From a virus, in IMG/VR virus record IMGVR_UViG_3300030419_005629, positions 1-35,461 of that record: 35,461 nucleotides of DNA; one strand, written 5' to 3'. Of this stretch, positions 3,601 through 34,125 are shown piece by piece. The position numbers and the translations under genes were made by a program. The notes beneath the pieces were generated by a model that was not told the origin of the DNA, ran no database searches, and saw only the letters and a program-made list of their open reading frames with translations. The number at the start of each line of letters is the position of its first letter. Within the stretch, counting starts at the first letter, position 1.

Positions 3601-3845
3601 TGATGCAACTTAGGGGAGATATTATCAAAGCTCTTGTAAAAAAATTCGAAGGTGAAATTTCTGCACATAAAGTAAATATAGAAATACTACTTGAGAATAC
3701 TGTTGGTGTTGGGGAACATCCTAATATAATAGAAACCATTGAACAGGAGTTAGATATAATTGCTGGATTTGAAGATAAATTATCTGTATTAAAAAAATAT
3801 TTTACAGATTCAAATTCTAAGAAGAAAGAGGTTCTGAATGGCTAA
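3600..3845 (+). CDS. small helical phage protein, function unknown
   Basis: An 81-residue protein that looks mostly helical, with a central TVGVGEHPNIIETIEQELD segment (34-52). GDIIKALVKKFEGEI comes near the start and a KLSVLKKYF helix follows. It begins in a TAATG junction with the preceding gene and ends 8 nt inside the first glycosyltransferase gene, so the three are translationally coupled. GGGAG at 3586-3590 precedes the start; a second ATG follows directly. From memory, similar small proteins occur in marine T4-like phages without assigned function. Nothing in the sequence names a role. Confidence 0.6.
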   Translation: MMQLRGDIIKALVKKFEGEISAHKVNIEILLENTVGVGEHPNIIETIEQELDIIAGFEDKLSVLKKYFTDSNSKKKEVLNG

Positions 3846-5205
3846 GAAGAAAATTTTATTGATGTCTGATGATTTGAGAATGCATAGTGGAGTAGCTACT
3901 GTATCTAAAGACATCGTATTTGAGACATTAAATGAATATGATTGGGTTCAGATTGGGGGTGCTATTAAACATCCAGAAGCTGGAAAGGTGATAGATATGT
4001 CACAGGGACTTGAGGAATTCGGTATTAAAGATGGATATCTGAGAATATATCCAGTAGATGGGTATGGTAATGAAGATATTCTTAGAGAAGTTATTGCTTT
4101 GGAAAAACCAGATGCTATCTTACACTATACAGATCCTCGTTTTTGGATTTGGTTTTATAATATGGAAGCGGAACTTCGTAGGACTATGCCAATATTTTAT
4201 TACAACATTTGGGATGATTTACCTGATCCACAATACAATACTAATTACTATCGTAGTTGTGATTTATTGATGGCAATATCAAAACAGACTTATGGTATAA
4301 ATAAAAGATTACTAAAACCATATGGGTATGAAGATTGGCAAGTGACTTATGTGCCACATGGTATTTCACCAAGAAGGTTTAATAAGATAGAAGATGATAA
4401 TATGTCATTGATAGACTTTGAATCTAAACATAAACTTTCTGATAAGAAATTTAAAATACTTTATAGTAATAGAAATATCAGAAGAAAACAACCTAATGAT
4501 TTGATTCTAGCATACAAATACTTTATGGACGAATTAACGCCGGAACAACAAAGAGAATGTGTGTTAATATTTCATTGTCAACCAAGTGATGAAAATGGAA
4601 CAGATTTACCAAGAGTAAAAAAACATTTAATTCCAGATTATGATATTTGTTTTACATATGATACGGATGGTAGACCGTTTGGTGATCAAGAAATGAATAT
4701 GTTGTTTAATTCTGCAGATGTTTATGTTAATCTTGCTAGTAATGAGGGATTTGGATTGGGTAGTTGTGAGGCTATGACTGTTGGAACACCAATTATTGTA
4801 AATGTTACAGGTGGATTACAAGACCAATGTGGATTTAAAGATGATGATGGTAATTTACTAACACCTGATGACTATGTTGACTTGGGTAGTAATCACAGAG
4901 GTCGATATAAAACACATGGTGAGTGGGCAAAACCCGTTTATCCAACTTCTATTTCATTACAAGGTTCAGTACCAACACCATACATTTGGGATGATAGATG
5001 TCAACCAGAGGATGCTGCTAAAAATCTAAGAGAGTTTTACGACATGGGTAGAGAAGAAAGAAAACGAGTTGGTTCATTGGGAACACAGTTTTGTAAAGAA
5101 AATCAAATGACAGCAAAGGTCATGGGCGAAAACTTTATTAAGTCTATGAATGGTGCTTTTGAGAATTGGACACCAAAATCAAAATATACGATGGAGGCAG
5201 TATGA
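3838..5205 (+). CDS. GT4-type (GT-B) glycosyltransferase
   Basis: A 455-residue GT-B enzyme. The N-terminal domain opens with an SGVATVSKDIV loop after the first strand (17-27). The C-terminal domain shows NRNIRRKQP (211-219), a sugar-nucleotide site entrance, and SNEGFGLGSCEAMTVGTPII (301-320). The latter is the E-x7-E motif (Glu303, Glu311) of retaining GT4 transferases. It should move a sugar from an activated donor to an acceptor in the cytoplasm; donor and acceptor are unknown. AAAGAGG precedes the ATG, which overlaps the previous gene by 8 nt. The next gene is another GT4-type enzyme joined by ATGA overlap. Confidence 0.88.
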   Translation: MAKKKILLMSDDLRMHSGVATVSKDIVFETLNEYDWVQIGGAIKHPEAGKVIDMSQGLEEFGIKDGYLRIYPVDGYGNEDILREVIALEKPDAILHYTDPRFWIWFYNMEAELRRTMPIFYYNIWDDLPDPQYNTNYYRSCDLLMAISKQTYGINKRLLKPYGYEDWQVTYVPHGISPRRFNKIEDDNMSLIDFESKHKLSDKKFKILYSNRNIRRKQPNDLILAYKYFMDELTPEQQRECVLIFHCQPSDENGTDLPRVKKHLIPDYDICFTYDTDGRPFGDQEMNMLFNSADVYVNLASNEGFGLGSCEAMTVGTPIIVNVTGGLQDQCGFKDDDGNLLTPDDYVDLGSNHRGRYKTHGEWAKPVYPTSISLQGSVPTPYIWDDRCQPEDAAKNLREFYDMGREERKRVGSLGTQFCKENQMTAKVMGENFIKSMNGAFENWTPKSKYTMEAV

Positions 5206-6554
5206 AGCGTTTTGTACTTATGATTGCACCTTTTAATACCCGTAGTGGTTATGGTGACCATGCTCGTTCATTATACTATTCAATCATGGATAGAGAAGAC
5301 TTAGATATTAAGTGTATTGATGTTAAGTGGGGAAGTACGCCAAGAAATCATTTAAGACCAGAAGTTCCCAAACATAAAAAATTATTAGATAGTTTTATTA
5401 CAAATGAACAAGTAAAAAGTCAACCAGATGTTTTAATTGACATAAGAATACCAAATGAATTTGCTACTGGTGGGAAAATTAGTATTGGTGTAACTGCTGG
5501 TGTGGAAACTGATGTAGTTTCACCTGAATTTTTAAATGGTATGAATAAAATGAATCTAAATATAGTTCCATCTACCTTTACTGCTAACACATTTAATAAA
5601 TGTACTTATGATAGAATGGAAGATTTACCAAATGGTCAGAAGAGAAAAGCAGGTGTGGTTAAAAACGAAAAACCTATTCATGTTTTGTTCGAAGGTGTTG
5701 ATACAGATATCTATTATCCAAAACAAAAACATGAATTAGAAAAGGATTTATGTGAAGAGTTAGATGGCCTTATCAAAGAAGATTTTGCATATCTTCATGT
5801 AGGTCAATGGGGTAATGCTGGTTTTGGTGAAGATAGAAAAAATATCGGAGTTTTGATAAAGTCTTTTTTAAAAGCTTTTGCTAATATCCCTAATCCACCA
5901 GCACTTGTCCTTAAAACTAATGGAGCTAATTTTAGTATACTTGATAGACAAGATATTAAAAAAAGAATACAAAGTGTTAAAGATATGTTTGATGGGGTAA
6001 ACTTACCTAATATTTATTTAATACACGGTGACTTTACTATTGAAGAGATGTCAACACTTTACAACCATCCAAAGATTGGTGCTTTCATTACTTGTACTCA
6101 TGGTGAGGGATTTGGAAGACCAATGGCTGAAGCTAGTTGTTGTGATTTACCTGTAATTGCTACAAAGTGGAGTGGTCATCTAGATTTTCTAACAGATTCG
6201 GAATCTATGTTAATAGATGGGTTTGTAAAAGAAGTTCCAAAATCTGCTTTATGGCCTCCAATTATTGTTGAGCCATCTAAGTGGTTTAGTGTAAATGAAG
6301 CTGATGTGGTTAGAAAGATTAGAACTTTTCATAAGAAAAGAAAACTAATACAAAAGAAAGCTACTCGTTTGGGTAAAAGAAATAGACGAGAGTTTTCTTT
6401 AAAAGCTATGAAAATTGAATTTAATAAAATGTTAGATGAAGTTTTTAAGTCAATACCTCAACCTGTAAGTTTAAATCTACCTAAACTTAAGAAAATTGAT
6501 AATAAAACACAACCCTCTAAGATAAAATTACCTAAACTTAAAAAGGTAACATAA
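5202..6554 (+). CDS. GT4-type glycosyltransferase with repeated basic tail
   Basis: A 450-residue GT-B enzyme starting at ATG 5202 (GGAGG at 5193-5197, ATGA overlap), not at the in-frame ATG 36 nt upstream. The N-terminus has PFNTRSGYGDHARSL, a typical donor/acceptor loop. The C-terminal domain has THGEGFGRPMAEAS with the E-x7-E pair Glu302 and Glu310, then PVIATKWSGHLDFL. The last 30 residues leave the fold and carry LPKLKK twice, encoded by two copies of a 13-bp repeat (6478-6490 and 6529-6541). That tail is basic and may bind a partner or nucleic acid. It probably acts with the preceding GT4 enzyme on the same glycan. Confidence 0.87.
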   Translation: MKRFVLMIAPFNTRSGYGDHARSLYYSIMDREDLDIKCIDVKWGSTPRNHLRPEVPKHKKLLDSFITNEQVKSQPDVLIDIRIPNEFATGGKISIGVTAGVETDVVSPEFLNGMNKMNLNIVPSTFTANTFNKCTYDRMEDLPNGQKRKAGVVKNEKPIHVLFEGVDTDIYYPKQKHELEKDLCEELDGLIKEDFAYLHVGQWGNAGFGEDRKNIGVLIKSFLKAFANIPNPPALVLKTNGANFSILDRQDIKKRIQSVKDMFDGVNLPNIYLIHGDFTIEEMSTLYNHPKIGAFITCTHGEGFGRPMAEASCCDLPVIATKWSGHLDFLTDSESMLIDGFVKEVPKSALWPPIIVEPSKWFSVNEADVVRKIRTFHKKRKLIQKKATRLGKRNRREFSLKAMKIEFNKMLDEVFKSIPQPVSLNLPKLKKIDNKTQPSKIKLPKLKKVT

Positions 6555-6970
6555 TGGAAGATATGGTATTGAAAGTTAAATGTCCTGTATGTATGGCTGA
6601 TGATGGTGAAGAAAATACAGGAGATAATCTCATATTATTAGGTGATGATGAGCAGAATATGCAGTGCATAGGTTGTGGTTTTGGTTCAAACAATAATATG
6701 AAAATTCATATAAGTGATAATCCATTTCCACAAGAATTTAAAGATGTTTGTAGAAAAATTGGAAAAAGGTTTTGGGCACCATCGGTATTTACAACGGAGA
6801 ATTACAATGTTGTTCCTATGGTTGAAAAAAAAGAGTTGAAGTGGAGAGTTTTTTCTCATGTGGATCCGAAAACTGAAGTTGTAGTACCTACATTTGGTGA
6901 TGCTTTTAAAATGGTAGAAAAATTGGAGACATTAATTGGCCAGAAGATACAACAACAGACGAATAGTTAA
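6554..6970 (+). CDS. zinc-ribbon protein, function unknown
   Basis: A 138-residue protein with C10-x2-C13 and C38-x2-C41, an N-terminal zinc ribbon. It is followed by an FWAPSVFTTENYNVVPM segment and a C-terminal half with no motif I recognise. It has no features of a sugar enzyme and looks like a phage accessory gene sitting inside the glycan run, together with the next gene. It starts in a TAATG junction and its last 35 nt are shared with the next gene in another frame. DNA or RNA binding is possible from the ribbon alone. Confidence 0.55.
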   Translation: MEDMVLKVKCPVCMADDGEENTGDNLILLGDDEQNMQCIGCGFGSNNNMKIHISDNPFPQEFKDVCRKIGKRFWAPSVFTTENYNVVPMVEKKELKWRVFSHVDPKTEVVVPTFGDAFKMVEKLETLIGQKIQQQTNS

Positions 6971-7394
6971 GTCTTTTCAAACTATTGCCAGTGGTAAATT
7001 ATTACCTGGTATGATAATTACATTTAACTATGCTGAAACTGGTGTCGTGGATCCTCGCCCCATACTACTTTTTTTACATCAAAATAATAAGACAAAAAAT
7101 GTTGAAGGTTTGAACTTAAACTATCTTAACCCAACGAAGTTAAAAAAATTATTTCAAGTTGCAGATTTTAAGAAAACTAAATTAGATGAAGTAGAAAACT
7201 TAATTAACTTAAAAGAAGATTACTTTCGTGTTCAGATTTCTAATCCAAAGAAGAGGTCTGCCATGTCCACCAAAAGATTTTATAGTGATGTTATATCATC
7301 CGATAAATATTTTAAAGAAGCGTATAGATCCTATAAAATAGGAAAATTAACAGCAATAAAAGTCACACAAATAAACATAGAATTTATTCAATGA
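6936..7394 (+). CDS. conserved phage protein of unknown function, TTG start
   Basis: A 152-residue basic protein. The likely start is TTG at 6936, seven bases after GGAG at 6925-6928. It lies 35 nt inside the previous gene; the first in-frame ATG (residue 26) would cut into the recognisable domain. LLPGMIITFNY (22-32), then PILLFLHQN and EGLNLNYLNP, resemble a small beta-rich domain I recall from T4-like marine phages, including some annotated as DNA-associated. The following 70 residues are Lys-rich. It ends in ATGA overlap with a glycosyltransferase gene. Its place within the glycan run suggests co-transcription, not a sugar function. Confidence 0.55.
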   Translation: MARRYNNRRIVKSFQTIASGKLLPGMIITFNYAETGVVDPRPILLFLHQNNKTKNVEGLNLNYLNPTKLKKLFQVADFKKTKLDEVENLINLKEDYFRVQISNPKKRSAMSTKRFYSDVISSDKYFKEAYRSYKIGKLTAIKVTQINIEFIQ

Positions 7395-8026
7395 AAATTA
7401 GTTATTCAATGTTGGTTCATAATGAAACCAATACACTTGAAAAGTTATTAGAGTTTTTAGTAAAATATAAACAACCACAGGATGAAATAGTTATTCTTGA
7501 TGACTATTCTGATAATGAAAAGACTAAAACTATATTAGATTTTTATATATCTACCGAGGGTGTAGTTTATGAGCAAAGAAATCTTTTAGGTGATTTCGCC
7601 ACACAAAAGAATTATCTCAAAGGAATGTGTTCTGGTGATTATAGTTTTAACTTAGATGCGGATGAAATGGTATCTCATTGGTTTATGAAAGACATACATG
7701 ATATACTTGAGGGTAACGAGGTTGATTTGATTTATGTTCCAAGAATAAATACAGTAGATGGGATAACAGAAGAACATTGTAGAATGTATGGATATAGAAT
7801 AAATGAAAATGGTTGGGTAAATTATCCTGACTGGCAAGGTCGTATATTTCGTAACCGACCAAACATTCGTTGGGAAAAACCAGTTCACGAAATGATTACT
7901 GGATTTCAAACTTATGCTCATTTACCAATGGAACAAAAATATTCTATTATACATCCAAAGACAATAGAAAGACAAGTAGAACAAAATAAATTTTATAATG
8001 AAGAGATAAGTGCTAAATTAAGGTGA
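7391..8026 (+). CDS. GT2-family (GT-A) glycosyltransferase
   Basis: A 211-residue GT-A enzyme. It has YSMLVHNETNTLEKLLEFL at the N-terminus (5-23), EIVILDDYSDN (32-42) and the metal-binding DxD in NLDADEM (Asp89, Asp91). A typical RIFRNRPNIRWEKPVHE segment follows. It matches short GT2 enzymes of the WaaE/KdtX type, which add sugars in LPS cores and elsewhere. The C-terminus is short, with no membrane helix. It starts by ATGA overlap and passes to the next gene by GTGA overlap. The transferred sugar cannot be told from sequence. Confidence 0.88.
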   Translation: MKISYSMLVHNETNTLEKLLEFLVKYKQPQDEIVILDDYSDNEKTKTILDFYISTEGVVYEQRNLLGDFATQKNYLKGMCSGDYSFNLDADEMVSHWFMKDIHDILEGNEVDLIYVPRINTVDGITEEHCRMYGYRINENGWVNYPDWQGRIFRNRPNIRWEKPVHEMITGFQTYAHLPMEQKYSIIHPKTIERQVEQNKFYNEEISAKLR

Positions 8027-9033
8027 TTAAAGTAAAGTTATATGAACTTGATAAACATCGTAATGAAACTACTTTTAGACCTTTCATTATGGCTCAAAAT
8101 CTTTTTAGTGAAGTAGGAATACTTTTTACCGATTCTGATGATTATGATTACGCTTTTGTTGGTCAAGCTAGTATTATAGATAAGAAAAAACCATTAAAAG
8201 AATCTATAGATAATGGAGTAGAATTTGTCTCTAAAATAGATGGTGATTATATGATTGTAGATGGTCAAGATTCTACTACTTTAATTGGGACAATTGATGT
8301 TTTTCGTGAATCAAATGCTAAGTTATTTTTAAAAAATACATATTTAAAAGATTTTAATTTATACAAACAAGGTTGGGCTAATGGTAGAATGTATTGGGGA
8401 AAAGGTGATTATTCTGTACCAGATATATACGATTTAGAGCCTAATATGGAGTTGACGGGTTGTAATTGGTTGCATACTTTACAACCAAATTGGTATGATT
8501 ATAGTCAAGATAAACCATATGATTTGTCTTGTATGTTTAGTTATCCAACAAAAGAACCAGTTTATGAACATGATTTGTGTCAAACAGATTATTACGATCC
8601 TCATAGAAAAAATTTAATGGACACTTTGGGTGATAAATATAATGTAGCCAAATTAGTAGATGGTGTTAGATTGTCACCACAAGAATACTATAAAAAAATG
8701 TTTGATTCAAAAATTATATTAGCACCAATTGGTTATGGTGAAATGGCACCTAGAGATATAGAGTCTGCTATGTTTGGAAGTGTTTTGATGAAACCTGATA
8801 TGAGTTATATTAATTCCAAACCTTTTATATATGAGGATGATGAGACATATATTGCTGTAAATTATGATTGGTCTAATCTTGAAGAGAAGATAGATTATGT
8901 ATTATCGGATTACGATAATATCAGAGAAAGACTTGTCCAAAATATGAGAAAAAAATATCAAGAAAAATATAATTTACAAAATTTAGTGTTGCATGTTTAT
9001 GATATTTTTAGTAGATTAGATGATGTTGAATAA
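8023..9033 (+). CDS. putative glycosyltransferase (paralogue of 24530 gene)
   Basis: A 336-residue protein from a GTG at 8023 that overlaps the previous stop as GTGA. The C-terminal part (SKIILAPIGYGEMAPRDIES, then FGSVLMKPDMS and DWSNLEEKIDYVL) resembles the glycosyl transferases group 1 C-terminal domain (Glyco_trans_1_2) and exostosin-like proteins. There a surface sugar-nucleotide site is followed by a Y/W-rich helix. The N-terminal SDDYDYAFVG and VFRESNAKLFLKN segments match the gene at 24530. No classical E-x7-E is present. The sugar-transfer role is inferred from the C-terminal pattern and context. Confidence 0.68.
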   Translation: MIKVKLYELDKHRNETTFRPFIMAQNLFSEVGILFTDSDDYDYAFVGQASIIDKKKPLKESIDNGVEFVSKIDGDYMIVDGQDSTTLIGTIDVFRESNAKLFLKNTYLKDFNLYKQGWANGRMYWGKGDYSVPDIYDLEPNMELTGCNWLHTLQPNWYDYSQDKPYDLSCMFSYPTKEPVYEHDLCQTDYYDPHRKNLMDTLGDKYNVAKLVDGVRLSPQEYYKKMFDSKIILAPIGYGEMAPRDIESAMFGSVLMKPDMSYINSKPFIYEDDETYIAVNYDWSNLEEKIDYVLSDYDNIRERLVQNMRKKYQEKYNLQNLVLHVYDIFSRLDDVE

Positions 9034-10006
9034 AATAAATTTTGCTATGTTAATAGATGGTTGTGTTCAAAGGTCTTATTATGTCAAAGACGGCAAGTCA
9101 TATAAATTTAATACTGATGAACCATACTCACATCATCACTCAATAGGTAATGAGTGTCATTTGGGAATATGGGGATGGCCTTTTTTATTTGATGGTTATT
9201 TTTTAAATTGGACGGAATTTGATGAATTACCTTCTTTAGATTTAGATGTTATTATGGTTGCAATAGAAAAAAAACATGAATATAATGTTGATATGATAAG
9301 AAAAAAATATCCAAATGCTATTGTTGTTAGTTTTATAAAAGAAGATTATTGGTCTAATTTTTCCATACCACAAAGAGTTGAATTTTTTAAGTCGTGTGAT
9401 TACATAACTTTTCCTTGGAAAGTAGACCATGAAGAGAATGGTATGTTAGGTATAAAAACATTATCTGATTTATGTGGTAGAGATGTTCATTATGTACCAC
9501 AACCTCATAATATCGATTTTTTATATGAAAAATATTTTACACAAGATAAGTTAGTACAAATATTAAATTATAAAACACCAGAAGTTTCACCAGGTGAGGA
9601 TACAGAAAGTTTTGTTAATTATATAAGTGAAAAATATGATGTACCAGTAGTTGAACATATTGTCAAATATGAAGGTCCAGAACATAACCAATGGGAAGAA
9701 TTTTTATCTGGTATTACCGATTCATTATATTGTTTTAATTTAGATACTGTTAAAACAGGTGGTTCTATGGCTGTTCAATGTGCAGCACTTGGTATGTTGA
9801 ATATCGGTGGGGTTCAAGATTCAAATGAAATTCTATTTCCAAATACTGCTACTAATGAGTGGAATAAGTTAGAAAAATCTTTTGTGGATTTACATGAAAA
9901 TAATGATGTATTAAGAAAAACTATGTATACTGCTTTTGAAAAGGCAAATGAATACTATTCATATGATTCTGTTAAAAACAGATTTTTGGGAGTTATAAAT
10001 GGTTAA
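9020..10006 (+). CDS. putative GT-B-like glycosyltransferase
   Basis: A 328-residue protein with no membrane segment. The middle has HYVPQPHNIDFLYEKYF, like the end of an N-terminal GT-B domain. Near the C-terminus GGSMAVQCAALGMLNIGG looks like the donor-site helix of GT-B enzymes. No known family is recognised with certainty, and an unrelated sugar enzyme cannot be excluded. Two adjacent ATGs (9020 and 9023) lie in a 14-nt overlap with the previous gene. It ends 8 nt inside the PIG-L gene. Neighbours on both sides are sugar enzymes. Confidence 0.5.
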   Translation: MMLNKINFAMLIDGCVQRSYYVKDGKSYKFNTDEPYSHHHSIGNECHLGIWGWPFLFDGYFLNWTEFDELPSLDLDVIMVAIEKKHEYNVDMIRKKYPNAIVVSFIKEDYWSNFSIPQRVEFFKSCDYITFPWKVDHEENGMLGIKTLSDLCGRDVHYVPQPHNIDFLYEKYFTQDKLVQILNYKTPEVSPGEDTESFVNYISEKYDVPVVEHIVKYEGPEHNQWEEFLSGITDSLYCFNLDTVKTGGSMAVQCAALGMLNIGGVQDSNEILFPNTATNEWNKLEKSFVDLHENNDVLRKTMYTAFEKANEYYSYDSVKNRFLGVING

Positions 10007-10628
10007 GAAACTTGTTATATCTCCGCATATAGATGATGAGGTTTTGGGATGTGGTGGTATATTAGATAAAGATACATTTGTTTTATATTGTGGAGTAGAA
10101 AATAGATATGTTAATGGTGATATGTCAATTAGTGTTGTTACCAGAATAAATGAATTAAAAAAGGTTAGTAAATTTTTAAATTTTGATTTCAAATTATTGG
10201 ATAATAAAGTTAATAATTTTCAACTAAAAGATTTAATTGGTGAATTTGAGGAAGTCATTAGTCGGTTGAAACCAAAACAAATTTACATACCATATCCATC
10301 TTATAATCAAGATCATAGAATTGTATATGAAGCATCATTGATTGCAACTAGACCACATGACATTAATTTTTTTGTTAAAAAGATTTTAGTTTATGAACAA
10401 CCTCATGTTTTCTTTTGGGATAAGACTCATAACATAAATGGTGGATTTGTTCCAAACTATTTTATTCCGATAGATGTGAATAAAAAAATTAAAGCATATG
10501 AACTGATGAAAACACAAGTAAGAAGTTTTAGGAGTTCAGAGAATTTAAAGTCTATGGCTAATTTAAGAGGCACACAAAGTAACAACGAATATGCTGAAGC
10601 TTTTCAAATATTAAGATGGATTGACTAA
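9999..10628 (+). CDS. PIG-L/LmbE-type N-deacetylase
   Basis: A 209-residue zinc hydrolase of the PIG-L family. SPHIDDEVLGCGG (8-20) is the variant of the AHPDDE motif whose His10 and Asp13 hold zinc, and YNQDHR later supplies the second histidine. The family removes acetyl groups from N-acetylated sugars such as GlcNAc conjugates. GGGAG at 9988-9992 supports the ATG, and the gene overlaps its neighbours by 8 nt and 1 nt. The next gene is a formyltransferase, which needs a free amine, so deacetylation followed by formylation is a natural reading. A second PIG-L gene lies at 29839. Confidence 0.86.
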   Translation: MVKKLVISPHIDDEVLGCGGILDKDTFVLYCGVENRYVNGDMSISVVTRINELKKVSKFLNFDFKLLDNKVNNFQLKDLIGEFEEVISRLKPKQIYIPYPSYNQDHRIVYEASLIATRPHDINFFVKKILVYEQPHVFFWDKTHNINGGFVPNYFIPIDVNKKIKAYELMKTQVRSFRSSENLKSMANLRGTQSNNEYAEAFQILRWID

Positions 10629-15411: not shown

Positions 15412-15419
15412 GTAGAAAT

Positions 15420-19009: not shown

Positions 19010-19066
19010 GATGTTTACATAAGATAAGTTATATTTATATATATATAAACAAGGTTATATTTTAAA
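19010..19066 (+). promoter_or_regulatory. promoter-like intergenic gap inside the glycan cassette
   Basis: A 57-nt gap holding the 16-mer TATATTTATATATATA (19030-19045), identical to that at 3360-3375. AACAAGG (19048-19054) follows, also shared with the first gap. TGTTTA (19012-19017) and TAAACA (19046-19051) could pair around a long loop but form no convincing terminator. The duplication of both elements suggests a second start of transcription for the distal half of the cassette. Orientation of the AT element is uncertain, as its minus strand reads TATAAATA. Confidence 0.5.
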
Positions 19067-21805: not shown

Positions 21806-21809
21806 TCAA

Positions 21810-26444: not shown

Positions 26445-26453
26445 GAGAATAAA

Positions 26454-27314
26454 ATGATTAATATAGAAAAGAATAAAAAGTATTTAGTAACAGGTGGTTC
26501 AGGTTTTTTAGGTGGTGAATTGATAGAGAGAATATTAGAACAAGGTGGGAAGATTATAACTGTATCAAGAAACGAGGGACAACTAATAAAGTTAAAACAA
26601 AAGTTTCCATCTGTACAGATAGAGACTGGTGATATAACAAATAAACATTCAGTTCATCGTGTAATGAAAGGTGTAACTGGTGTATTTCATCTGGCTGCTT
26701 TTAAGCATGTTGGGATGGCGGAAACTCAATCCGTTGAATGTACTAATTCAAATGTTATAGGTTCTAAAAATGTATTGGAGTGTGCTGCTGAAGAGGGAGT
26801 GGATTTTGTGATTGGTATCAGTACAGATAAGGCTGCTCAAGTTGCTGGGGTTTATGGTGCTAGTAAATTATTAATGGAAAAAATGTTTAAACAATATGAA
26901 GTAGATTATCCAAGTATAAAATTTAGATTAGTTAGATATGGTAATGTTCTTTATTCAACTGGTTCAGTTCTTTGTAAGTGGAGAGATTTATTACAACAAG
27001 GTAAGGAAGTTATTGTTACTGAACCCAAAGCTACAAGATTTTTTTGGACTTTAGAGCAGGCAGTTGACTTGATATATGATTGTATGCGAGATGCTAATGA
27101 TTGTGAGATACATTTTCCAAGTATGAAATCTATGAGTATCGAAAATCTATTGAAGGCTATGGCTGAAAAGTATTTACCAGAAGGTGAAGAACTACAGATT
27201 AAAACCATTGGTCTACAACCTGGTGAAAACTTTCATGAGAAGATATTGGAAGTAGGACCTGCTTCTAATGAAGTAGATGAGTTTACAATTGAGGAAATTA
27301 AGGAATTGATATAG
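26454..27314 (+). CDS. UDP-GlcNAc 4,6-dehydratase, PseB/CapD-like
   Basis: A 286-residue SDR of the short PseB/FlaA1 type. It has VTGGSGFLGGELIE (12-25), LAAFKHV, and GISTDKAAQVAGVYGASKL (121-139) with Asp125, Lys126, Tyr134 and Lys138. The eight-residue spacing from Lys126 to Tyr134 equals that of PseB. Family enzymes dehydrate UDP-GlcNAc to a 4-keto-6-deoxy sugar, with or without C5 inversion. The aminotransferase at 28089 could use the ketosugar. AGGAG six bases before the ATG is clear. PseG, PseH and PseI were not seen, so pseudaminic acid is not indicated. Confidence 0.85.
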   Translation: MINIEKNKKYLVTGGSGFLGGELIERILEQGGKIITVSRNEGQLIKLKQKFPSVQIETGDITNKHSVHRVMKGVTGVFHLAAFKHVGMAETQSVECTNSNVIGSKNVLECAAEEGVDFVIGISTDKAAQVAGVYGASKLLMEKMFKQYEVDYPSIKFRLVRYGNVLYSTGSVLCKWRDLLQQGKEVIVTEPKATRFFWTLEQAVDLIYDCMRDANDCEIHFPSMKSMSIENLLKAMAEKYLPEGEELQIKTIGLQPGENFHEKILEVGPASNEVDEFTIEEIKELI

Positions 27315-28111
27315 TGAAAAAAATTCTGATATTTGGTGGTAATAGATTTGTCGGAAAATCTTTATCTAAAATCCTTTTGGATAAGGGATATGAAGTTGAT
27401 GTATTTAATAGAAGTGGTACATCAGCAGATATTGGTATATCTATTATTCAGGGGGATAGAAATAATGGTGAGGATATTAATAAAATAGATTTTGAAAAAT
27501 ATGATTGTATAGTTGATATGTGTTTATTTTTTATTAGTCAATTTAAGATGTTTTATAAATTAATACCCAAGGAAACCAAATATATTTTTGTAAGTAGTGG
27601 TGCTGCTGATCACCGATATGTTCATCATTATGGAGAATATGGAAAAGAAAAATCAGAAATAGAGGATTTTTTGGATTATGTGGATTTCAATTATGCTATA
27701 ATTAGACCAAGTTATATAGTTGGAAGTGGTGATCATAGAGCTAGACTTGACTATTATATAGATAAAATAAATAATAACGAATTAATAAAAATAGATGGTG
27801 ATGGTACAAATGAAATTAATATGGTTTTTGTACAGGATGTAGTAAAAGTTTTGGAAAAGTTAGTCGATATGGATGAACTTGATAATGATATTATTAATGT
27901 TTGTGGAAATGAATCATTCAGTTTATTAGATTTTGTTAATAATATTAATAACAAATATTATCAAAAAACAGTCAATTTTCTTTTTAATCAAAATGATGCA
28001 ATACTACCAAAAAATACATTTGTGTTTGACAATACACAAACTTGTATTAAATTTGATATGAATTTCACCGACTTATATGAAGGTTTTGATGAATATGTAC
28101 AAGGTTCATAG
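27314..28111 (+). CDS. NAD-dependent SDR (epimerase/reductase-like)
   Basis: A 265-residue SDR from a GTG that shares one base with the preceding TAG. IFGGNRFVGKSL (6-17) is an atypical Rossmann loop seen in divergent NAD-dependent epimerases, with FNRSGTS at the cofactor-specificity position. VSSGAAD (93-99) and Y109-x3-K113 supply the active site. RPSYIVGSGDHRARLDYYI and FVQDVVKVLEKL follow. It lies between a 4,6-dehydratase and an aminotransferase, so epimerisation or reduction of their shared UDP-sugar intermediate is likely, though the family is broad. The 3' end holds the start of the next gene. Confidence 0.7.
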   Translation: MKKILIFGGNRFVGKSLSKILLDKGYEVDVFNRSGTSADIGISIIQGDRNNGEDINKIDFEKYDCIVDMCLFFISQFKMFYKLIPKETKYIFVSSGAADHRYVHHYGEYGKEKSEIEDFLDYVDFNYAIIRPSYIVGSGDHRARLDYYIDKINNNELIKIDGDGTNEINMVFVQDVVKVLEKLVDMDELDNDIINVCGNESFSLLDFVNNINNKYYQKTVNFLFNQNDAILPKNTFVFDNTQTCIKFDMNFTDLYEGFDEYVQGS

Positions 28112-29243
28112 AGCTAAACCTTATATACCACAATCTAGTAAAGCCTGGATTATGACTAAATATCGAGATATAATTGATAATGAACAATTGATACAAGGTA
28201 AATATGTTTCGGAGTTTGAGGATGAGGTAAAACTTTTAAGTAAGGTTGATAATGCTATTGCTACGACTTCATGTGGAACTGGTTTAGAAACTGTATTAAT
28301 TGCTAGTGAAATAAGAAATAAAAAATTCATAGTTCCGACACAGACCTTTGCGGCTAGTGTAAATTGTATCATACGAAGTGGTAACGAACCTTTAATTGTT
28401 GATGTAGATGAAGTAACACAATGTCTATCTCTTGATATAATAAAAGAGAATTTTTCAGATGATGTTGGTGGGGTTGTATTAGTTCATATGTCTGGTCTGA
28501 TAACACCTGAGATAATACAGATAGAAAACTTTTGTAAAGAGAATAATTTATTCTTACTAACTGATGATGCCCATTCATATGGTGCGAGTTATTTCGATGT
28601 TTACAGAAATGAGGTTAGATATGCTGGTTCTTTTGGTAATGCGGGTGTTTTTTCTTTCTATCCATCCAAGATAATAACTACTGCCGAGGGTGGTATGATT
28701 ACTACCAATGATGATGAACTTGCAGAGAGATGTAGAGTGGTTAGAAATCATGGAACAAGAAGAAATGATGGAGAACATCAAGGTTTGGATTATGGATACA
28801 CTTGTGATATGCCCTCTACTAATTATAGAATGAGTGAGTTTCACGCTGTTCTGGGTATATCACAGAATAAATATCTTAGAGAATTTTTGTTTCGTAGGAA
28901 TGAAATAGCTGAGATTTATAATGATAGATTATCAAATATAGAATGGTTACAGACACCTCTTGTTTATGATTTTGTATATCAAACTTGGTGGCAGTATACT
29001 TTAAAGATAACCGATGGAAGAGATAGAATTGAAGTTTTATTATCCTTAAATAAGATGGGAATTCCTACTGCTAATGCTTATCAACCTTTATGTCATGAAC
29101 AAAAAATATACGATAAATTTTTGAGTAAAGGTGGGTATAATAATATTAATAATGTTATCAATAAAATATTTTCTGTTCCTATGTATGTAGAATTAGAGGA
29201 TGAAGAAGTACATTATATATGTGATTGTTTGGAGACATTGTGA
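28089..29243 (+). CDS. DegT/DnrJ/EryC1 sugar aminotransferase
   Basis: A 384-residue PLP enzyme with the internal lysine intact. From the chosen ATG 28089, LLTDDAHSYG (156-165) holds the PLP-binding Asp, and FSFYPSKIITTAEGG has Lys194 as the Schiff-base residue. TSCGTGLET binds phosphate. AAGG lies five bases before ATG 28089; in-frame ATGs at 28077 and 28095 are alternatives. It should add an amino group, using glutamate, to the 4-keto sugar made by the PseB-like enzyme, as PseC and PglE do. It contrasts with the His-containing relative at 17858. It ends in GTGA overlap with the WbqC-like gene. Confidence 0.86.
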   Translation: MNMYKVHRAKPYIPQSSKAWIMTKYRDIIDNEQLIQGKYVSEFEDEVKLLSKVDNAIATTSCGTGLETVLIASEIRNKKFIVPTQTFAASVNCIIRSGNEPLIVDVDEVTQCLSLDIIKENFSDDVGGVVLVHMSGLITPEIIQIENFCKENNLFLLTDDAHSYGASYFDVYRNEVRYAGSFGNAGVFSFYPSKIITTAEGGMITTNDDELAERCRVVRNHGTRRNDGEHQGLDYGYTCDMPSTNYRMSEFHAVLGISQNKYLREFLFRRNEIAEIYNDRLSNIEWLQTPLVYDFVYQTWWQYTLKITDGRDRIEVLLSLNKMGIPTANAYQPLCHEQKIYDKFLSKGGYNNINNVINKIFSVPMYVELEDEEVHYICDCLETL

Positions 29244-29839
29244 TTGTATCAATACATCAACCAATGCACTTTCCTTATATGGGATTTTTTCAAAAAATGA
29301 AATCATCGGATTTATTTATTCTATTAGACGATGTTCAATTTTCTAAAAATGATAAGTATTCATTTTACAATAGAAATAAATTTCAAAATAATAGTGGTGT
29401 GGAAGAGTGGTTTACTGTACCTGTTGAAAGAGGGGCAAATAAGAAGTTGATAAAAGATGTGTCAGTTGCAGAAGATTTTGGATGGAGAAGAAAGTTGGCT
29501 AAACAGATGAAACAGAATTTTGGTAATGATTTTTTAGACATTTATAGTAGTGATAAAATAGTAGATATTAATATTAAAAGTATAGATTATTGTAAATTTA
29601 AACTTAATATTAATACAGAAACAATAAGGTCATCTGATTTAAATGTTAGTGGTGTTAAGTCGGAGAGATTATATAATTTATGTAAGAAAGTTGGTGCAAC
29701 TGAATACATATCAGGTCCGTTTGGTAAATATTATCTCGATAAAGAATTGTTTACTGATGTTAAAATAACTATTTTTGAACCCAAAGTGGATAATCATTAT
29801 ACTGCTTTGACATATTTTGATAACAGAGGTGATGGGTAA
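29240..29839 (+). CDS. WbqC-like family protein
   Basis: A 199-residue protein from GTG 29240 (GGAG at 29231-29234, GTGA overlap), not the TTG fifteen bases upstream. IHQPMHFPYMGFFQKM (5-20), SDLFILLDDVQFSKND and NRNKF are the hallmarks of the WbqC-like family (PF08889), often found in O-antigen and antibiotic sugar loci beside DegT aminotransferases. Its biochemistry is not established to my knowledge. Context suggests modification of the amino sugar made by the preceding genes. It ends in a TAATG junction with a PIG-L deacetylase gene. Confidence 0.87.
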   Translation: MIVSIHQPMHFPYMGFFQKMKSSDLFILLDDVQFSKNDKYSFYNRNKFQNNSGVEEWFTVPVERGANKKLIKDVSVAEDFGWRRKLAKQMKQNFGNDFLDIYSSDKIVDINIKSIDYCKFKLNINTETIRSSDLNVSGVKSERLYNLCKKVGATEYISGPFGKYYLDKELFTDVKITIFEPKVDNHYTALTYFDNRGDG

Positions 29840-30501
29840 TGAATGTAATGGCGATAGGTGCACATCCAGATGATATAGAATTTGGGTGTAGTGGTACTTT
29901 AATGAGACATGTTCATGCAAACGACAATGTTGTCTATGTCTGTATGACCAACACCGAGTCAAAGTCTGGTACTACTGGTGATGTGTTGAGAACTAGTGAT
30001 GAGTTATTTGAAGAGGTGAAGTGTGCTACTGATAGAATGGGAATAGAAACTTTAGAGTTTTTAGACTTTAAAGATTTGCATGTTCCCTTTAGTTTCAAAA
30101 GTGTATCTGAATTAGATAAAATAATACAACGATATAAGATAGATACCATTTATACACATTGGGCTGGTGATGCAAATCAAGACCACATATCAACTTTTAA
30201 ATCAACTATGGCTGCTGCTAGATATGTTAGAAATGTCTATTGTTATGAACAGATACCAATCCCAAGATTGACAGAGAATGAGATGACAATTAATTATTAT
30301 GTAGATATTAGTGACTATATGGAAGATAAAATAGAAGTTGCGGAATGTCACAAGAGTCAAATAAAAAAGTATAAAAAAGTTGGTTTTGATGTTCCAAATA
30401 GATTAAGAGTTCTTGCTGAGTTCAGAGGTATTCAAGCTAATTGTAGATATGCTGAGGGTTTTCATATAATAAAACAGGTTGATGGTACATATGGTAATTA
30501 A
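29839..30501 (+). CDS. PIG-L/LmbE-type N-deacetylase
   Basis: A 220-residue zinc-dependent deacetylase. AIGAHPDDIEFGCSGTL (5-21) has the zinc ligands His9 and Asp12, GDANQDHIST holds the third ligand, and FRGIQANCRYAEGF resembles the C-terminal signature shared with the 9999 gene (LRGTQSNNEYAEAF). It is closer to the canonical BshB/LmbE pattern than the other copy. It would remove an N-acetyl group from an amino sugar. TAATG joins it to the WbqC-like gene. Unlike the 9999 copy it has no formyltransferase next to it. Confidence 0.9.
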   Translation: MNVMAIGAHPDDIEFGCSGTLMRHVHANDNVVYVCMTNTESKSGTTGDVLRTSDELFEEVKCATDRMGIETLEFLDFKDLHVPFSFKSVSELDKIIQRYKIDTIYTHWAGDANQDHISTFKSTMAAARYVRNVYCYEQIPIPRLTENEMTINYYVDISDYMEDKIEVAECHKSQIKKYKKVGFDVPNRLRVLAEFRGIQANCRYAEGFHIIKQVDGTYGN

Positions 30502-31414
30502 AACAAATCCAGAGTTTGGTATAGAATTAGCACTTAGTGTTCCATATGCTTATTATTTACACACACAGGGTAAATTAGATACTGTTATTACATCTAAGGG
30601 TATGAAACCATTTTATTATTTTTGTGAAGATGTAAGAGAAGATTTTAATGACAGAACTATAGATAATTCAGCTGCTGGTTTAGATGAACTACCAAACAAT
30701 TGGATTCATGGTTTTGACTCGATGAATCAACCTGGTGTTTTAAATTATGATGAGTGGATGACGCCACCTTATAGAGATTATTATAAAAATGATGAATATA
30801 AGTTTGGGGGTAAGGTTGTTTTTGTAACTAATAAGTATAATATAGAACATGGTCATGAACCATATGGTTATTTTGACATCAAATGTTTATATGACATTTT
30901 TACTTATTTAACATCCGTTGGTTATGATGTTATTTACAAAAGACCTTTGAATACAGAGTTTGTTGTTGACCAAAATGAAATGCGTTCTGCTATGTCTGAT
31001 ATGCATATTGTTGCTGATGTTGAAGGGATAGGATTAATTTCTGATAGGGATTTACCTAAATATTTTGATAAAGTTTACCTGTTTGATGATTTAATAAATA
31101 ACTATTCATATAATGAAACACAAATGAAAATAATGGCAAACACAGATTATTTTATAAGTCAGAGTGGTGGAAATACTATATTATCTTGTATGTGGGATAG
31201 ACCAGTAATTACATACTTAACTCAAGGTAAAGAATTAAGACCTAACTACTTTGGTAAAAATTCTTATTTTCAAAAGTTGTCAAATCAAAAATGTATACCA
31301 ATTTATGATGTCATAGGTAAAATAAATTCAACTACTTATAATCATTATGTTAATGATACTGGTAAGAATGATTACTCTGGTTTAATAGAAAAAATTAAAG
31401 AGGAAATAAAATGA
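30482..31414 (+). CDS. putative GT-B-like sugar enzyme, unclassified
   Basis: A protein of about 310 residues, with no named family recognised. KVVFVTNKYN is followed by CLYDIFTYLTSVGYDVIYKRP. Later, ANTDYFISQSGGNTILSCMW and DRPVITYLTQGKEL look like the donor-site half of GT-B enzymes and UDP-GlcNAc 2-epimerases. Start is uncertain: ATG 30482 sits only three bases after AGG, ATG 30491 twelve bases, and the frame reads back to a TTG at 30479. Both ATGs overlap the PIG-L gene. Its neighbours are a deacetylase and a UDP-sugar dehydrogenase, so a sugar role is likely. Confidence 0.5.
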   Translation: MVHMVIKTNPEFGIELALSVPYAYYLHTQGKLDTVITSKGMKPFYYFCEDVREDFNDRTIDNSAAGLDELPNNWIHGFDSMNQPGVLNYDEWMTPPYRDYYKNDEYKFGGKVVFVTNKYNIEHGHEPYGYFDIKCLYDIFTYLTSVGYDVIYKRPLNTEFVVDQNEMRSAMSDMHIVADVEGIGLISDRDLPKYFDKVYLFDDLINNYSYNETQMKIMANTDYFISQSGGNTILSCMWDRPVITYLTQGKELRPNYFGKNSYFQKLSNQKCIPIYDVIGKINSTTYNHYVNDTGKNDYSGLIEKIKEEIK

Positions 31415-32286
31415 AATTAAAACAAAAAATAGGTGTGGTTGGTAATGGATTTGTTGGTGGAGCTGTTAAGTTTGGTTTTTCACCACAAGTTGGTTGTGAT
31501 GCTGATGTTAGAGTTTATGATAAGAATCCAAATAAATCAACACACACCTTAGAAGAAACAGTAAATGAGTCTGATTTTATATTTTTATCAGTACCAACAC
31601 CAGCAAATAAAGATGGTTCAATTAATATTGATATACTGAATAGTGTCCTAAGTGAAATTAATATTGTGTCTGAACGAGAAAATATTATCTTGATTAGGTC
31701 TACTGTGACACCAGGAACTACTTGGTCGTTACAAAATCACTATGAAAATTTGAATTTATTATTTAATCCAGAGTTTTTAACTGAGAGGTCTGCTAACTTT
31801 GACTTCATAAATCAAAGTCGTTTTATTATTGGTAGTGAAGAATCAAAAAAAGGAAAATCAAATTCTAAGGAATTTGTTAAGTTGATTAAAGATAGGTTTG
31901 GTGATTGTATTGCAGTATTGGAAACTAATTATGAAACTGCTGAGATGATTAAATATATGAGTAATTGTTTTTTTGCTACCAAGGTATCTTTTATGAATGA
32001 AATGTATCAAATAGCAAAAAAAGTAAATGTTGATTGGGATGATGCCGTTAGTGGATTTGTAGCTGATGGTAGGATAGGACACTCTCATTTAGTTGTACCT
32101 GGTCACGATGGTAAGTTTGGATTTGGTGGTAGTTGTTTTCCAAAAGATATACAGGCCATGATTGATTTTGCTGAAACTGTAGGTATAGAACCAACTGTAT
32201 TATATGGGGTTTGGGAAAAAAACTTACAAGTTAGACCAGAAGAAGATTGGAAAGAATTAAAGGGAAGGGCAGTAACAGATGATTAA
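31411..32286 (+). CDS. short UDP-sugar (UDP-glucose/GDP-mannose type) dehydrogenase
   Basis: A 291-residue member of the UDP-glucose/GDP-mannose dehydrogenase family. IGVVGNGFVGGAVKFG (7-22) binds NAD, SVPTPANKDGSIN and NPEFLTERSA (119-128, Glu122) follow, then MIKYMSN with Lys181 and Asn185, and FGFGGSCFPKD with the catalytic Cys242. These are all the residues for two-step oxidation to a uronate. It lacks the C-terminal sugar-nucleotide-binding domain of full enzymes (about 390-440 aa). Short versions occur in phages, and whether they are active alone is unclear. It ends 8 nt inside the MazG-like gene. Confidence 0.86.
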   Translation: MKLKQKIGVVGNGFVGGAVKFGFSPQVGCDADVRVYDKNPNKSTHTLEETVNESDFIFLSVPTPANKDGSINIDILNSVLSEINIVSERENIILIRSTVTPGTTWSLQNHYENLNLLFNPEFLTERSANFDFINQSRFIIGSEESKKGKSNSKEFVKLIKDRFGDCIAVLETNYETAEMIKYMSNCFFATKVSFMNEMYQIAKKVNVDWDDAVSGFVADGRIGHSHLVVPGHDGKFGFGGSCFPKDIQAMIDFAETVGIEPTVLYGVWEKNLQVRPEEDWKELKGRAVTDD

Positions 32287-32539
32287 CAGAAAATTAGACT
32301 ACAATACAGAGTTAATGTTAATCACTATGGAAGAGTGTGGTGAATTAATTGAGGCTTGTTCTAAGACCATTCGATGTGAGGATTATGTGGATGATGAAAA
32401 AATGATAGAAGAGGTTGGCGATGTATTATTGATGATAGATTTGATAGTAGACAGGGGGTTGGTTAAGAAAGAGGACATAGAGGCTCGTAAGAAAGTAAAA
32501 TTAGAAAAATTAAAAAAATGGAGTAACTTGATTGATTAA
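32279..32539 (+). CDS. MazG-like nucleotide pyrophosphohydrolase
   Basis: An 86-residue all-helical protein with the two metal-binding motifs of the MazG/dUTPase-like fold: TMEECGELIEACSK (16-29, E-E-x2-E) and MIEEVGDVLLMIDLI (42-56, E-E-x2-D). Members hydrolyse NTPs or dNTPs to monophosphate and pyrophosphate. In phages they are proposed to adjust nucleotide pools or alarmone levels. The domain is a single-copy, short type. It interrupts the sugar genes, as does the next gene. Its substrate is not predictable. Confidence 0.85.
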   Translation: MINRKLDYNTELMLITMEECGELIEACSKTIRCEDYVDDEKMIEEVGDVLLMIDLIVDRGLVKKEDIEARKKVKLEKLKKWSNLID

Positions 32540-32891: not shown

Positions 32892-32895
32892 TATA

Positions 32896-34125
32896 ATGAG
32901 TGATAAAGTAATAAGTTTCATACAACCAAGTAGAAACAATTTAAAGTATTTAAAGTGGTCGTATAATAGTATAAGAAAGAACTTAGGATATAGACATGAA
33001 TTATGTTGGGCAGATGATTTCTCAAATGATGGAACTTGGGAGTGGATGAATGAGATTGTCAAGAAAGACCCGAATGTAAAGATACACAGAAACGAAGGTC
33101 CCACAAGATTAGGACACACCATACTATATGATACATTAGTTGATATGGCATCAAATGATATTGTGATGATATATCACGCTGATATGTACGCTTGTCCTAA
33201 CTTAGATACAGAGATACTTAAACATTTGGAACGAGGTAAGGTAGTAAGTGCAACACGAATAGAACCACCACTACATCCAGATGGACCAGAAAAGATTTTA
33301 CAAGATTTTGGAATAGAACCCGAAGAATTTGATGAACAGGGGTTGATGAGATTTTTAGATGAGGGTGTTGATTATTCTAAAAAACCAACAAATGGAATAT
33401 TTGCACCTTGGGCTATATACAAGGATGACTTTACGAGTATTGGTGGACACGACCCGTTATATGCTCCACAATCTAAAGAGGACTCTGATATATTTAACAG
33501 ATTTAAATTAAACGGATACGAGTTGATTCAGACTTGGAGAGGTTTTGTATATCATATGACTTGTAGGGGTTCAAGATTTAAAGATGGAGCTATGAGAAAT
33601 CCAGCAGGTCAAGTCTTTATGAAAGGTAGAGAATCATCAGAATGGTTAGCTCAAAATTTAAGAAGTACAAGAAACTTTATTCGTAAATGGGGACATATGG
33701 TTCAACATGATGAGTATCTTAAACCAATAGTTCCACCTAAATATGATGTCGCATTTGTTGCTTATAATTGTAATAAACAAATGTTATATGAATTAGAACC
33801 TTGGTGTAATATGATATTTTTGGATTCAGGTGCTATAGGAAAGTATGCCCATCAATATCGAGTGGAAGAACAACCAAACACTCAGTTTAACTTGGACGAG
33901 AGAATAAAGTTATATGGTAATAGTAAGATTTCGGATTTACATGATATTTGTGTAGAGTTTGATTGTAATCAATTGAATAATGAAAACTTTCAAGTGTTGG
34001 TCAATTTATCAAAAATGTTACAAGATAGTGGTGAGGTAGGTGAGATGGAATATGACATTTTTAAGTTTTACATCAAATCACTTGAAACATACGAAAAAAA
34101 CTTGATTGTTTGTAAGAGTAATTAG
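32896..34125 (+). CDS. GT2-family glycosyltransferase with extra C-terminal domain
   Basis: A 409-residue protein. Residues 1 to about 280 are a GT-A domain paralogous to the 25539 gene: SFIQPSRNNLKYLKWSYNSI (7-26), MIYHADMYACPN with His94-Ala-Asp96 replacing DxD, SIGGHDPLYAPQSKEDSDIF, and VYHMTCRGSRFKDG. The final 125 residues (from about PPKYDVAFVAYNCNKQM) are not in the paralogue and match nothing I know. They are helical and acidic near the end. AAGGGG seven bases upstream supports the ATG. It closes the glycan cassette. Confidence 0.83.
   Translation: MSDKVISFIQPSRNNLKYLKWSYNSIRKNLGYRHELCWADDFSNDGTWEWMNEIVKKDPNVKIHRNEGPTRLGHTILYDTLVDMASNDIVMIYHADMYACPNLDTEILKHLERGKVVSATRIEPPLHPDGPEKILQDFGIEPEEFDEQGLMRFLDEGVDYSKKPTNGIFAPWAIYKDDFTSIGGHDPLYAPQSKEDSDIFNRFKLNGYELIQTWRGFVYHMTCRGSRFKDGAMRNPAGQVFMKGRESSEWLAQNLRSTRNFIRKWGHMVQHDEYLKPIVPPKYDVAFVAYNCNKQMLYELEPWCNMIFLDSGAIGKYAHQYRVEEQPNTQFNLDERIKLYGNSKISDLHDICVEFDCNQLNNENFQVLVNLSKMLQDSGEVGEMEYDIFKFYIKSLETYEKNLIVCKSN

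Follow-up and report, generated by a model that had tools for sequence, protein, structure and literature searches.

What would a bacteriophage do with some 30 kb of sugar genes, and on which molecule would the resulting glycan be assembled? The question is raised by IMG/VR virus record IMGVR_UViG_3300030419_005629, which was analyzed over its entire 35,461 bp (hereafter, the window) and is classed as linear, a class that often denotes a fragment. The original prediction, made from the sequence without database searches, described positions 3838-34125 as an O-antigen-like cassette lying between phage genes, with which the phage would build its own complex glycan. The cassette itself is confirmed: the region holds 35 densely packed open reading frames (ORFs), like all main ORFs of the window on the + strand, and 24 of them match Pfam families of sugar or glycan metabolism (E<=1e-3, our own count). 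Its neighbors are indeed phage genes, namely a clamp loader A subunit, a ClpP-like protease, a PD-(D/E)XK nuclease and a SLOG protein on the left and an HNH endonuclease on the right. The reading favored here, to which a probability of roughly 0.5 is assigned, takes the cassette to be a serotype-like glycan locus carried by phages of the Far-T4 clade, the glycan being built on a phage-encoded acceptor, probably a virion protein.

Relatives were collected from viral contigs by means of the glycosyltransferase (GT) genes at the two ends of the locus, a GT4 enzyme at 3838-5205 (PF00534; the left anchor) and a GT2 enzyme at 32896-34125 (PF00535; the right anchor), keeping the best 80 of 99 matches for the former and the best 80 of 272 for the latter. 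Of the 40 records examined, 26 had been selected through the left anchor and 14 through the right one, and 27 contigs, all with both anchors and, going by their names, from 21 metagenome datasets, were used for the gene matrix. The left anchor is present in all 14 records chosen by the right one (in the other 26 it is present by selection), and a strong match to the right anchor occurs in 20 of the 26 chosen by the left, two of which have it cut by the contig end and were excluded (G009 and G024). Also excluded were five records with no right anchor (G002, G018, G020, G021, and G026), one with only a weak paralogue of it (G006), and three in which the left anchor is in pieces (G033, G036, and G037); G039 and G040 stayed outside the matrix though they carry both anchors, and G031 was kept despite a left anchor in two pieces. 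Two further constant enzymes, a second GT4 at 5166-6554 (PF00534) and a GT2 at 7391-8026 (PF00535) that forms the left border of the variable interior, are found in all 27 relatives, though neither was used for selection. Compared across related phage genomes, the locus thus recurs as a set of constant GTs, three on the left and one on the right, that bracket a hypervariable interior, with a first-to-last extent of 15.7-35.5 kb in the 27 relatives.

The divergence of the left GTs follows that of the phage backbone. The right anchor is 73-83% identical to that of the window in nine used contigs (G027-G038) whose first left GT is only 51-53% identical, and therefore itself looks exchanged. It is a speculation that the HNH endonuclease next to it (34922-35428; phrog_10822), which is matched in 21 of the 27 relatives and also in Flavobacterium phage vB_FspM_immuto (Immutovirus; hereafter, immuto), could promote recombination at the right edge. 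As a separate observation, the first constant GT, matched in pieces in the four records named above (G031, G033, G036, and G037), is annotated as two adjacent genes in Microcystis phage Mel-JY01 (20001-21492), where it may be broken or contain a sequencing error.

In 13 contigs (G001-G016), most genes up to position 8026 are 66-97% identical to those of the window, lower values being confined to three small genes at 675, 3600, and 6554, and the right anchor is 79-86% identical. The interior is patchy among the relatives, and five of its genes have no match in any of the 27. When 843 ORFs from 28 islands, those of the window and the 27 relatives, were clustered at 40% identity, 309 clusters were obtained, 184 of them confined to a single island and just five reaching 24 of the 28. 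Rarefaction, from which alone one member of each near-duplicate pair (G007/G008 and G012/G013) was dropped, still yields about 8 new clusters per island at 26 islands, with no plateau. Flank identity was compared with island content in 325 pairs, which are not independent, drawn from 26 of the 28 segments (two had no usable flank proteins). Flank identity reaches 85% or more in 63 pairs, of which 40 have less than 10% of their variable genes in common and 4 more than half; it is below 60% in 218 pairs, where the shared fraction is 10% or higher in 30 and 20% or higher in 12. The rank correlation between the two quantities is weak but positive (0.29), and island content appears to be largely uncoupled from the backbone. 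Four contigs with left genes 87-88% identical to those of the window (G012, G013, G014, and G016) have no interior gene in common with it at 60% identity, whereas G017 (67%) shares 11 and G031 (46%) shares 8. The flanks of G012 and G027 are only 43% identical, yet the two contigs have 15 colinear variable genes plus the right anchor in common (16 rows, 66-97%). Gene order in the interior of the window is preserved for many genes in G001, G005, and G017 and is partly rearranged in G031.

The coding density of the islands is about 1; reverse ORFs of at least 150 aa occur in 6 of 28 islands, the longest being 252 aa. Fourteen interior genes yielded usable pairs, with identities of 60% or more, and their median ratio of nonsynonymous to synonymous polymorphism (pN/pS) is 0.17-0.44, single pairs reaching up to 0.45, values that are rough because synonymous sites are near saturation. 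Judged from these sequence statistics, the islands are probably functional and not decaying. Coding density and pN/pS therefore argue against the notion of stuffer DNA, which, alongside a working role, was left open for the lipopolysaccharide (LPS) clusters of cyanophages in a 2010 comparison (PMC3037559).

The window is too short for virion genes, and the phage assignment was made on longer relatives. The window itself carries gp62, the T4-type clamp loader A subunit of the phage backbone (259-678; PF16790 E=4.5e-6, phrog_225 E=1.9e-18), which is 81-97% identical in 11 of 13 close relatives, the other two having no match. The 100-kb contig G001 is the closest of the long relatives, with a mean identity of 90% over five left genes. 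It reads PolB, HolB, gp62, nuclease, GT, GT, GT2, island, GT2, HNH and, on the same strand near the contig start, encodes a T4-type tail sheath protein (gp18); G029 keeps the order from PolB to the right GT2 as well. The T4-like structural genes sought by the original prediction, among which gp23 is absent from the window, were thus found on relatives, capsid, portal, and terminase genes among them: seven on the 165-kb G029 (gp25, gp17, gp20, gp21, gp23, gp13, and gp18), gp23, gp13, and gp18 on both G030 and G023, gp19 additionally on G030, and gp18 on G001. The capsid gene gp23 (PF07068) occurs on 3 of 19 long contigs. That of G029 is 54% identical to the gp23 of an uncultured 484-kb phage, 53% to that of Mel-JY01, 51% to that of immuto, and 36% to that of RM378, and about 30% identical to those of Escherichia coli T-even phages over two thirds of its length. 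By similarity, the capsid of this relative is of Far-T4 type, grouping with RM378 and apart from T-evens and cyanophages. A phage locus is identified by the T4-like replication and structural modules of the relatives together with gp62 in the window: the flanks of the longer homologous contigs carry T4-type genes and are not clearly bacterial chromosome. A prophage in a bacterial chromosome was considered and rejected, the flanks found being phage. RM378 is the Far-T4 reference phage, and the clade is described as common in aquatic viromes (PMC4360716); the available text of that paper contains none of the terms glycosyl, LPS, and sugar. Bacteroidetes have been proposed as hosts of marine Far-T4 phages, and Flavobacteriales make up the largest host share in one study (113 of 235; PMC7198788 and PMC13037479).

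Both anchors were compared with a phage collection (E<=1e-5), and matches were restricted to immuto, Mel-JY01, the uncultured 484-kb phage, and RM378. The left anchor has relatives in all four; among phage isolates the right anchor is found in immuto only, at 49%.

Bacterial O-antigen loci in general combine constant borders, an exchangeable interior, and rare sugars, and loci of the galF-gnd type resemble the present one in these three features. They differ in their assembly machinery, since here neither a flippase, a multi-pass polymerase, a PF02397 transferase, nor a nucleotidyltransferase was found. The Wzx flippase family (PF01943) was absent from all 41 records and present in 13 of 14 controls; the initiating transferase family PF02397 (Bac_transf) was likewise absent from all 41 and present in 9 of 14 controls; and the nucleotidyltransferase family PF00483 gave no match over cut-off in the 41 records and two weak sub-threshold ones. 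Among the 843 island ORFs, all of at least 90 aa, a simple hydropathy method predicted two or more membrane spans in none and a single span in six, while the E. coli K-12 proteins used as controls gave 5 (wbbH), 9 (rfbX), and 6 (wzxC). A Wzy-like multi-pass polymerase is therefore not seen by span count in these ORFs (no Wzy family model was run), and a WecA-type initiating transferase, which was not family-searched, would be multi-pass and has no multi-pass candidate among them. The description of the cassette as O-antigen-like accordingly did not hold, the E. coli O-antigen locus showing just those spans that are missing here, and nor did its description as complete. The claim of several nucleotide-sugar pathways was borne out for the later steps only, no NTP_transferase (PF00483) being over cut-off in any of the 41 records, nor any found in the window. 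In the absence of a nucleotidyltransferase and a flippase, the phage therefore seems to need nucleotide sugars from the host and to have no export route of its own.

The later steps probably include much of a pathway to a rare dideoxy sugar. GDP-mannose 4,6-dehydratase (GMD; 23568-24533), an enzyme of the GDP-colitose pathway, is present, passing the curated TIGR01472 cut-off (438.5 bits against 415). A ColD-like 3-dehydratase (17858-19009; best PDB match E. coli ColD, 2gms, E=4.9e-54) has a His, aligned with that of ColD, in place of the pyridoxal phosphate (PLP) lysine; its His pair (HH motif) stands where the aminotransferase at 28077-29243 has the PLP lysine, and the aligned His is presumably equivalent to the catalytic His188 of ColD. 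Matches of this protein to the NCBIfam RfbH and PseC models are below cut-off. The overlapping gene at 16954-17886 encodes a GDP-fucose-synthase relative (best PDB match 4e5y, E=8e-51; NF047922 below cut-off), a similarity that fits ColC or fucose synthase alike. A His-type ColD-like protein occurs in 12 of 28 islands, 10 of which (all except G014 and G038) also have a GMD-like gene, and a fucose-synthase relative lies within 0.6 kb of it in four (window, G023, G031, and G035), all with a GMD-like gene. By these sequence matches, the likely product is GDP-colitose or a close 3,6-dideoxy sugar, which the GT11 and GT10 enzymes of the island could transfer. Among the bacterial genomes scanned for close relatives of the ColD-like protein, one match was obtained, in a Flavobacteriaceae metagenome-assembled genome (L247 4001-5997; 53%), where it is encoded beside a GT11-like gene; a flavobacterial donor would fit this possible link, which does not prove one. 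Beyond the window, a Pfam scan of the islands that covered 140 of 227 cluster representatives detected radical SAM (5), B12-binding (4), transketolase-type thiamine pyrophosphate (4), and C-methyltransferase (3) families, an indication of branched sugars and other rare ones. To our knowledge, these families are unexpected in phages.

These observations can be arranged into a mechanism for a phage-borne, virion-directed glycan. Starting from host GDP-mannose, UDP-GlcNAc, and UDP-glucose, the encoded enzymes would make rare sugars, namely GDP-colitose or a close 3,6-dideoxy sugar together with amino, formylated, carbamoylated, and methylated sugars. In the cytoplasm, soluble transferases would then attach these stepwise to an acceptor encoded by the phage, a surface protein of the virion being the most likely one, with the constant GTs laying a common core and the island genes making a variable outer part. 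Blocks of island genes would move by recombination in the conserved borders, so that the particle surface could change while its proteins stay unchanged. The acceptor is likely phage-encoded, chiefly because the left GTs, which diverge along with the backbone, have been retained by phages whose hosts, Flavobacterium and the cyanobacterium Microcystis, differ in cell surface. That the phage builds its own complex glycan, as first proposed, is plausible, with the virion protein standing as a candidate acceptor. The fullest version, a true Far-T4 serotype system with a conserved virion glycan core, an outer structure drawn from an open pool comprising hundreds of sugar genes, cassette swaps even between lineages with flanks below 50% identity, and no lipid carrier, is put forward more tentatively, at somewhat less than even odds.

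Several points weigh against this reading. No direct evidence names the acceptor, and the fold match to a chlorovirus capsid glycosyltransferase discussed below concerns the common GT-A fold, which is uninformative on the acceptor. Soluble GTs could extend lipid-linked sugars of the host, in which case flippase and polymerase would come from the host as well. The locus is small in the nearest isolates (about 11 and 6 kb), and a large island is therefore not essential; in RM378 the first GT and a weak GT2 match were found, with no island in the 20.6 kb examined. Six of the 26 left-anchor records are without the right anchor (five with no match and the one with the weak paralogue), some of which fragment ends may explain. 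The ColC and ColD assignments rest on similarities below NCBIfam equivalog cut-offs, and the pN/pS values come only from the more similar pairs with near-saturated synonymous sites.

A serious rival, judged unlikely overall, is remodeling of the host surface by the enzymes, through LPS or capsule precursors, in the course of infection, which would exclude other phages or prevent released progeny from adhering to debris. Lipid-linked intermediates at the inner membrane are accessible to soluble transferases, the WbqC family is named after an O-antigen gene, and Pfam describes GT25 as an LPS biosynthesis family. A host-surface role is also what the authors of the pelagimyophage study propose for their glycosyltransferases (PMC7029224). 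On the other side, no membrane, flippase, or PF02397 component was found in the 28 islands, and the retention of the constant left GTs across phages of different host phyla is a better fit to a phage-borne acceptor. Serotype-converting phages, moreover, typically use membrane proteins.

Much less probable is a glycan on the phage DNA itself, in which hypermodified bases would protect the genome from host nucleases. Phage GTs that hypermodify DNA with several sugars do exist (Pyle 2024, as cited in PMC12619734), T4 beta-glucosyltransferase is among the weaker matches of a GT-B-fold protein of the island (rank 30), and the left flank holds a DUF1599 protein, whose family is named nucleotide-modification associated. 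However, the thymidylate-synthase-type hydroxymethylase family PF00303 was found on none of 19 long contigs, including the 165-kb G029 (9 of 14 control genomes were positive; the contigs are fragments), and of the DpdA and four queuosine-type genes of immuto, none is on G001, G029, or G030, and only QueE and FolE are on G023. A set of over 20 genes for deoxy, amino, formyl, and carbamoyl sugars would also far exceed any known DNA glycan. Slighter still is the chance that the locus is a hot spot gathering functionless host sugar genes. Highly variable content, with many genes seen once, would suit such filler, and it is the alternative for which the cyanophage authors left room (PMC3037559); the coding density and median pN/pS given above speak against it, as do the co-occurrence of a GMD-like gene in 10 of the 12 islands that encode a ColD-like protein and the presence in all 27 relatives of both left GTs that were not used for selection. 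Finally, a chimeric assembly joining a phage contig to a bacterial O-antigen locus, suggested by the caution of the original prediction alone (read coverage forms no part of the basis), is very improbable: 27 other contigs, which stem from 21 metagenome datasets, hold the same bracketed locus with many of its interior genes in the same order, the architecture is shared by isolate genomes of immuto, and there is no compositional break because GC content is 27-34% and GC skew positive along the whole window.

Among known systems, the cultured relatives are the closest. Immuto and Mel-JY01 share the order nuclease, GT, GT, GT2, the PD-(D/E)XK nuclease being one gene away from the GT pair in both, and have capsids of the shared group (51-53%); immuto also has the right GT2 anchor and the HNH gene. 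They differ in extent, with the about 11 and 6 kb noted above from first to last GT against 30 kb here, and most of the island genes are unrelated; in Mel-JY01 the right anchor is matched weakly (23%). Separately, a distant version of the locus was observed in the uncultured 484-kb phage (LR756508.1, 3343-31303), where nuclease, SLOG, and GT genes are followed by GT25-, GT10-, fucose-synthase-, and GMD-like matches.

The statement that most T4-like phages carry a handful of such genes needs qualification, since P-SSM2, S-SSM7, and the pelagimyophages are known exceptions (PMC3037559, PMC7029224). The T4-like cyanophages P-SSM2, S-SSM7, and S-SM2 are alike in having large sugar-gene clusters and marine bacterial hosts, and unlike in that their LPS clusters are placed near hli03 or phoH and not between gp62/nuclease and HNH (PMC3037559). 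Neither anchor matched P-SSM2 in the phage collection (E<=1e-5), which may or may not include it. The host recognition cluster of pelagimyophages is likewise a hypervariable island with glycosyltransferases in T4-like phages, but is described as lying among structural genes (VrlC-gp14) and holding tail fibers (PMC7029224). The present island adjoins replication genes, and neither the window nor the 25 of 108 families listed for island representatives showed a tail fiber. An interpretation as a tail-fiber or host recognition cluster was dropped, no fiber or structural gene being seen inside the island of the window. Moraphages, large aquatic Bacteroidota phages with predicted flavobacterial hosts, have four putative GT groups in most members; as described in the available text, they are a separate lineage with no bracketed sugar island (PMC12619734).

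The best working model, by analogy, would be the capsid glycan of chloroviruses. Chloroviruses such as PBCV-1 encode a GMD, the fucose-synthase type enzyme GMER, and transferases, and their glycan has a conserved core with virus-specific decorations (PMC5408694). One related fold is shared as well: the divergent GT8-like protein at 21810-22574, modeled with a GT-A fold (pLDDT 90), has a PBCV-1 capsid glycosyltransferase as its best match (13% identity, TM 0.62/0.76). Its 40% identity cluster spans 24 of 28 islands, it is matched, paralogues included, in 26 of 27 relatives, and it has no match in 50,697 phage records (E<=1e-5). Chloroviruses differ in infecting eukaryotic algae and in having a proven acceptor, whereas that of the present system is putative.

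With respect to the remaining content of the island, the 24 Pfam-assigned ORFs comprise two GT4, three GT2, one GT25, one GT11, and one GT10 enzyme, six short-chain dehydrogenases/reductases (SDRs) acting on nucleoside diphosphate (NDP) sugars (one of them GMD), a UDP-sugar dehydrogenase, two DegT/PLP enzymes, two PIG-L deacetylases, WbqC, a formyltransferase, a carbamoyltransferase, and two methyltransferases (one FkbM). Fold or homology adds the glycosyltransferases at 21810 and 8023 with their paralogues, so that the predicted total of about thirty sugar genes was slightly generous; the figure of some 15 transferases stands when the about 12 glycosyltransferases are counted together with the methyl-, formyl-, carbamoyl-, and aminotransferases. 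Between the second and third constant GTs are two small proteins without family matches (6554-6970 and 6936-7394), each in 17 of 27 relatives. The variable part begins with a GT-B-fold protein (8023-9033; AlphaFold2 pLDDT 84), with weak to moderate PDB matches to exostosin, PglA, and T4 BGT and, by homology, a paralogue at 24530-25546. It continues with a PIG-L deacetylase and a formyltransferase (9999-11281; PF02585, PF00551), two NDP-sugar epimerase/dehydratase genes (11278-13145; PF01370, PF16363), the GT25, GT11, and GT10 transferases (13146-15411; PF01755, PF01531, PF00852), and a NodU-type carbamoyltransferase (15420-16991; PF16861, E=9.3e-59). Downstream of the ColD-like gene are a GT8-like domain fused to a methyltransferase (19067-20431; PF13847), its N-terminal half homologous to the GT8-like protein above, a putative NodB-type deacetylase recognized by eye (20424-21173; no family match), and an FkbM-type methyltransferase (21170-21805; PF05050) with no match in the 27 relatives. 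The right-hand part encodes a GT2 transferase (25539-26444; PF00535), a UDP-GlcNAc 4,6-dehydratase-like protein of the PseB family with a second SDR (26454-28111; PF02719, PF01370; TIGR03589 below cut-off), the PLP sugar aminotransferase, with its Lys present, followed by a WbqC-like protein and a PIG-L deacetylase (28077-30501; PF01041, PF08889, PF02585), a member of the UDP-glucose/GDP-mannose dehydrogenase family (31411-32286; PF00984, PF03721; TIGR03026 below cut-off), and a MazG-like pyrophosphohydrolase (32279-32539; phrog_4856).

The left flank contains, after gp62, a small membrane protein with three predicted spans (675-1028), the DUF1599 protein (1030-1494; Pfam), a ClpP-like protease (1494-2093; PF00574, E=4.7e-26), the PD-(D/E)XK exonuclease (2093-2956; PF12705, phrog_69), and a SLOG/DprA-like protein (2938-3354; PF02481, PF10686). 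The membrane protein is 35-92% identical across the 13 close contigs, with a 37% match to an annotated EmrE-type multidrug transporter gene in immuto. The DUF1599 protein is 72-90% identical in six of the nine contigs G027-G038, in which other flank genes are below 60%, and therefore seems to be exchanged between lineages too. No tRNA was present in the window, an Rfam search returned nothing, and a single promoter-like pattern gave 0 matches against 1.4 expected.

Large T4-like sugar clusters, the pelagimyophage GT island, and the GTs shared by moraphages are already in print (PMC3037559, PMC7029224, and PMC12619734). What seems new is the position of the locus, its architecture of constant core and variable interior, the size of the gene pool, and its uncoupling from the backbone; no published description was found in the open-access literature, and one may exist elsewhere.

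Evidence of selection, constant borders, and the sharing of gene blocks all suggest a functioning, variable system in a clade that is common in aquatic viromes. The cultured relative immuto, which grows on Flavobacterium sp. LMO8 and has the same anchors, makes the acceptor question testable, and the gene pool offers enzymes for rare sugars. Should the glycan be on the virions, the identity of a particle would depend in part on sugar chemistry, which a comparison of tail fibers misses. The serotype system, if true, would give bacterial viruses an equivalent of O-antigen switching and of the capsid glycan of chloroviruses, one that operates without a lipid carrier.

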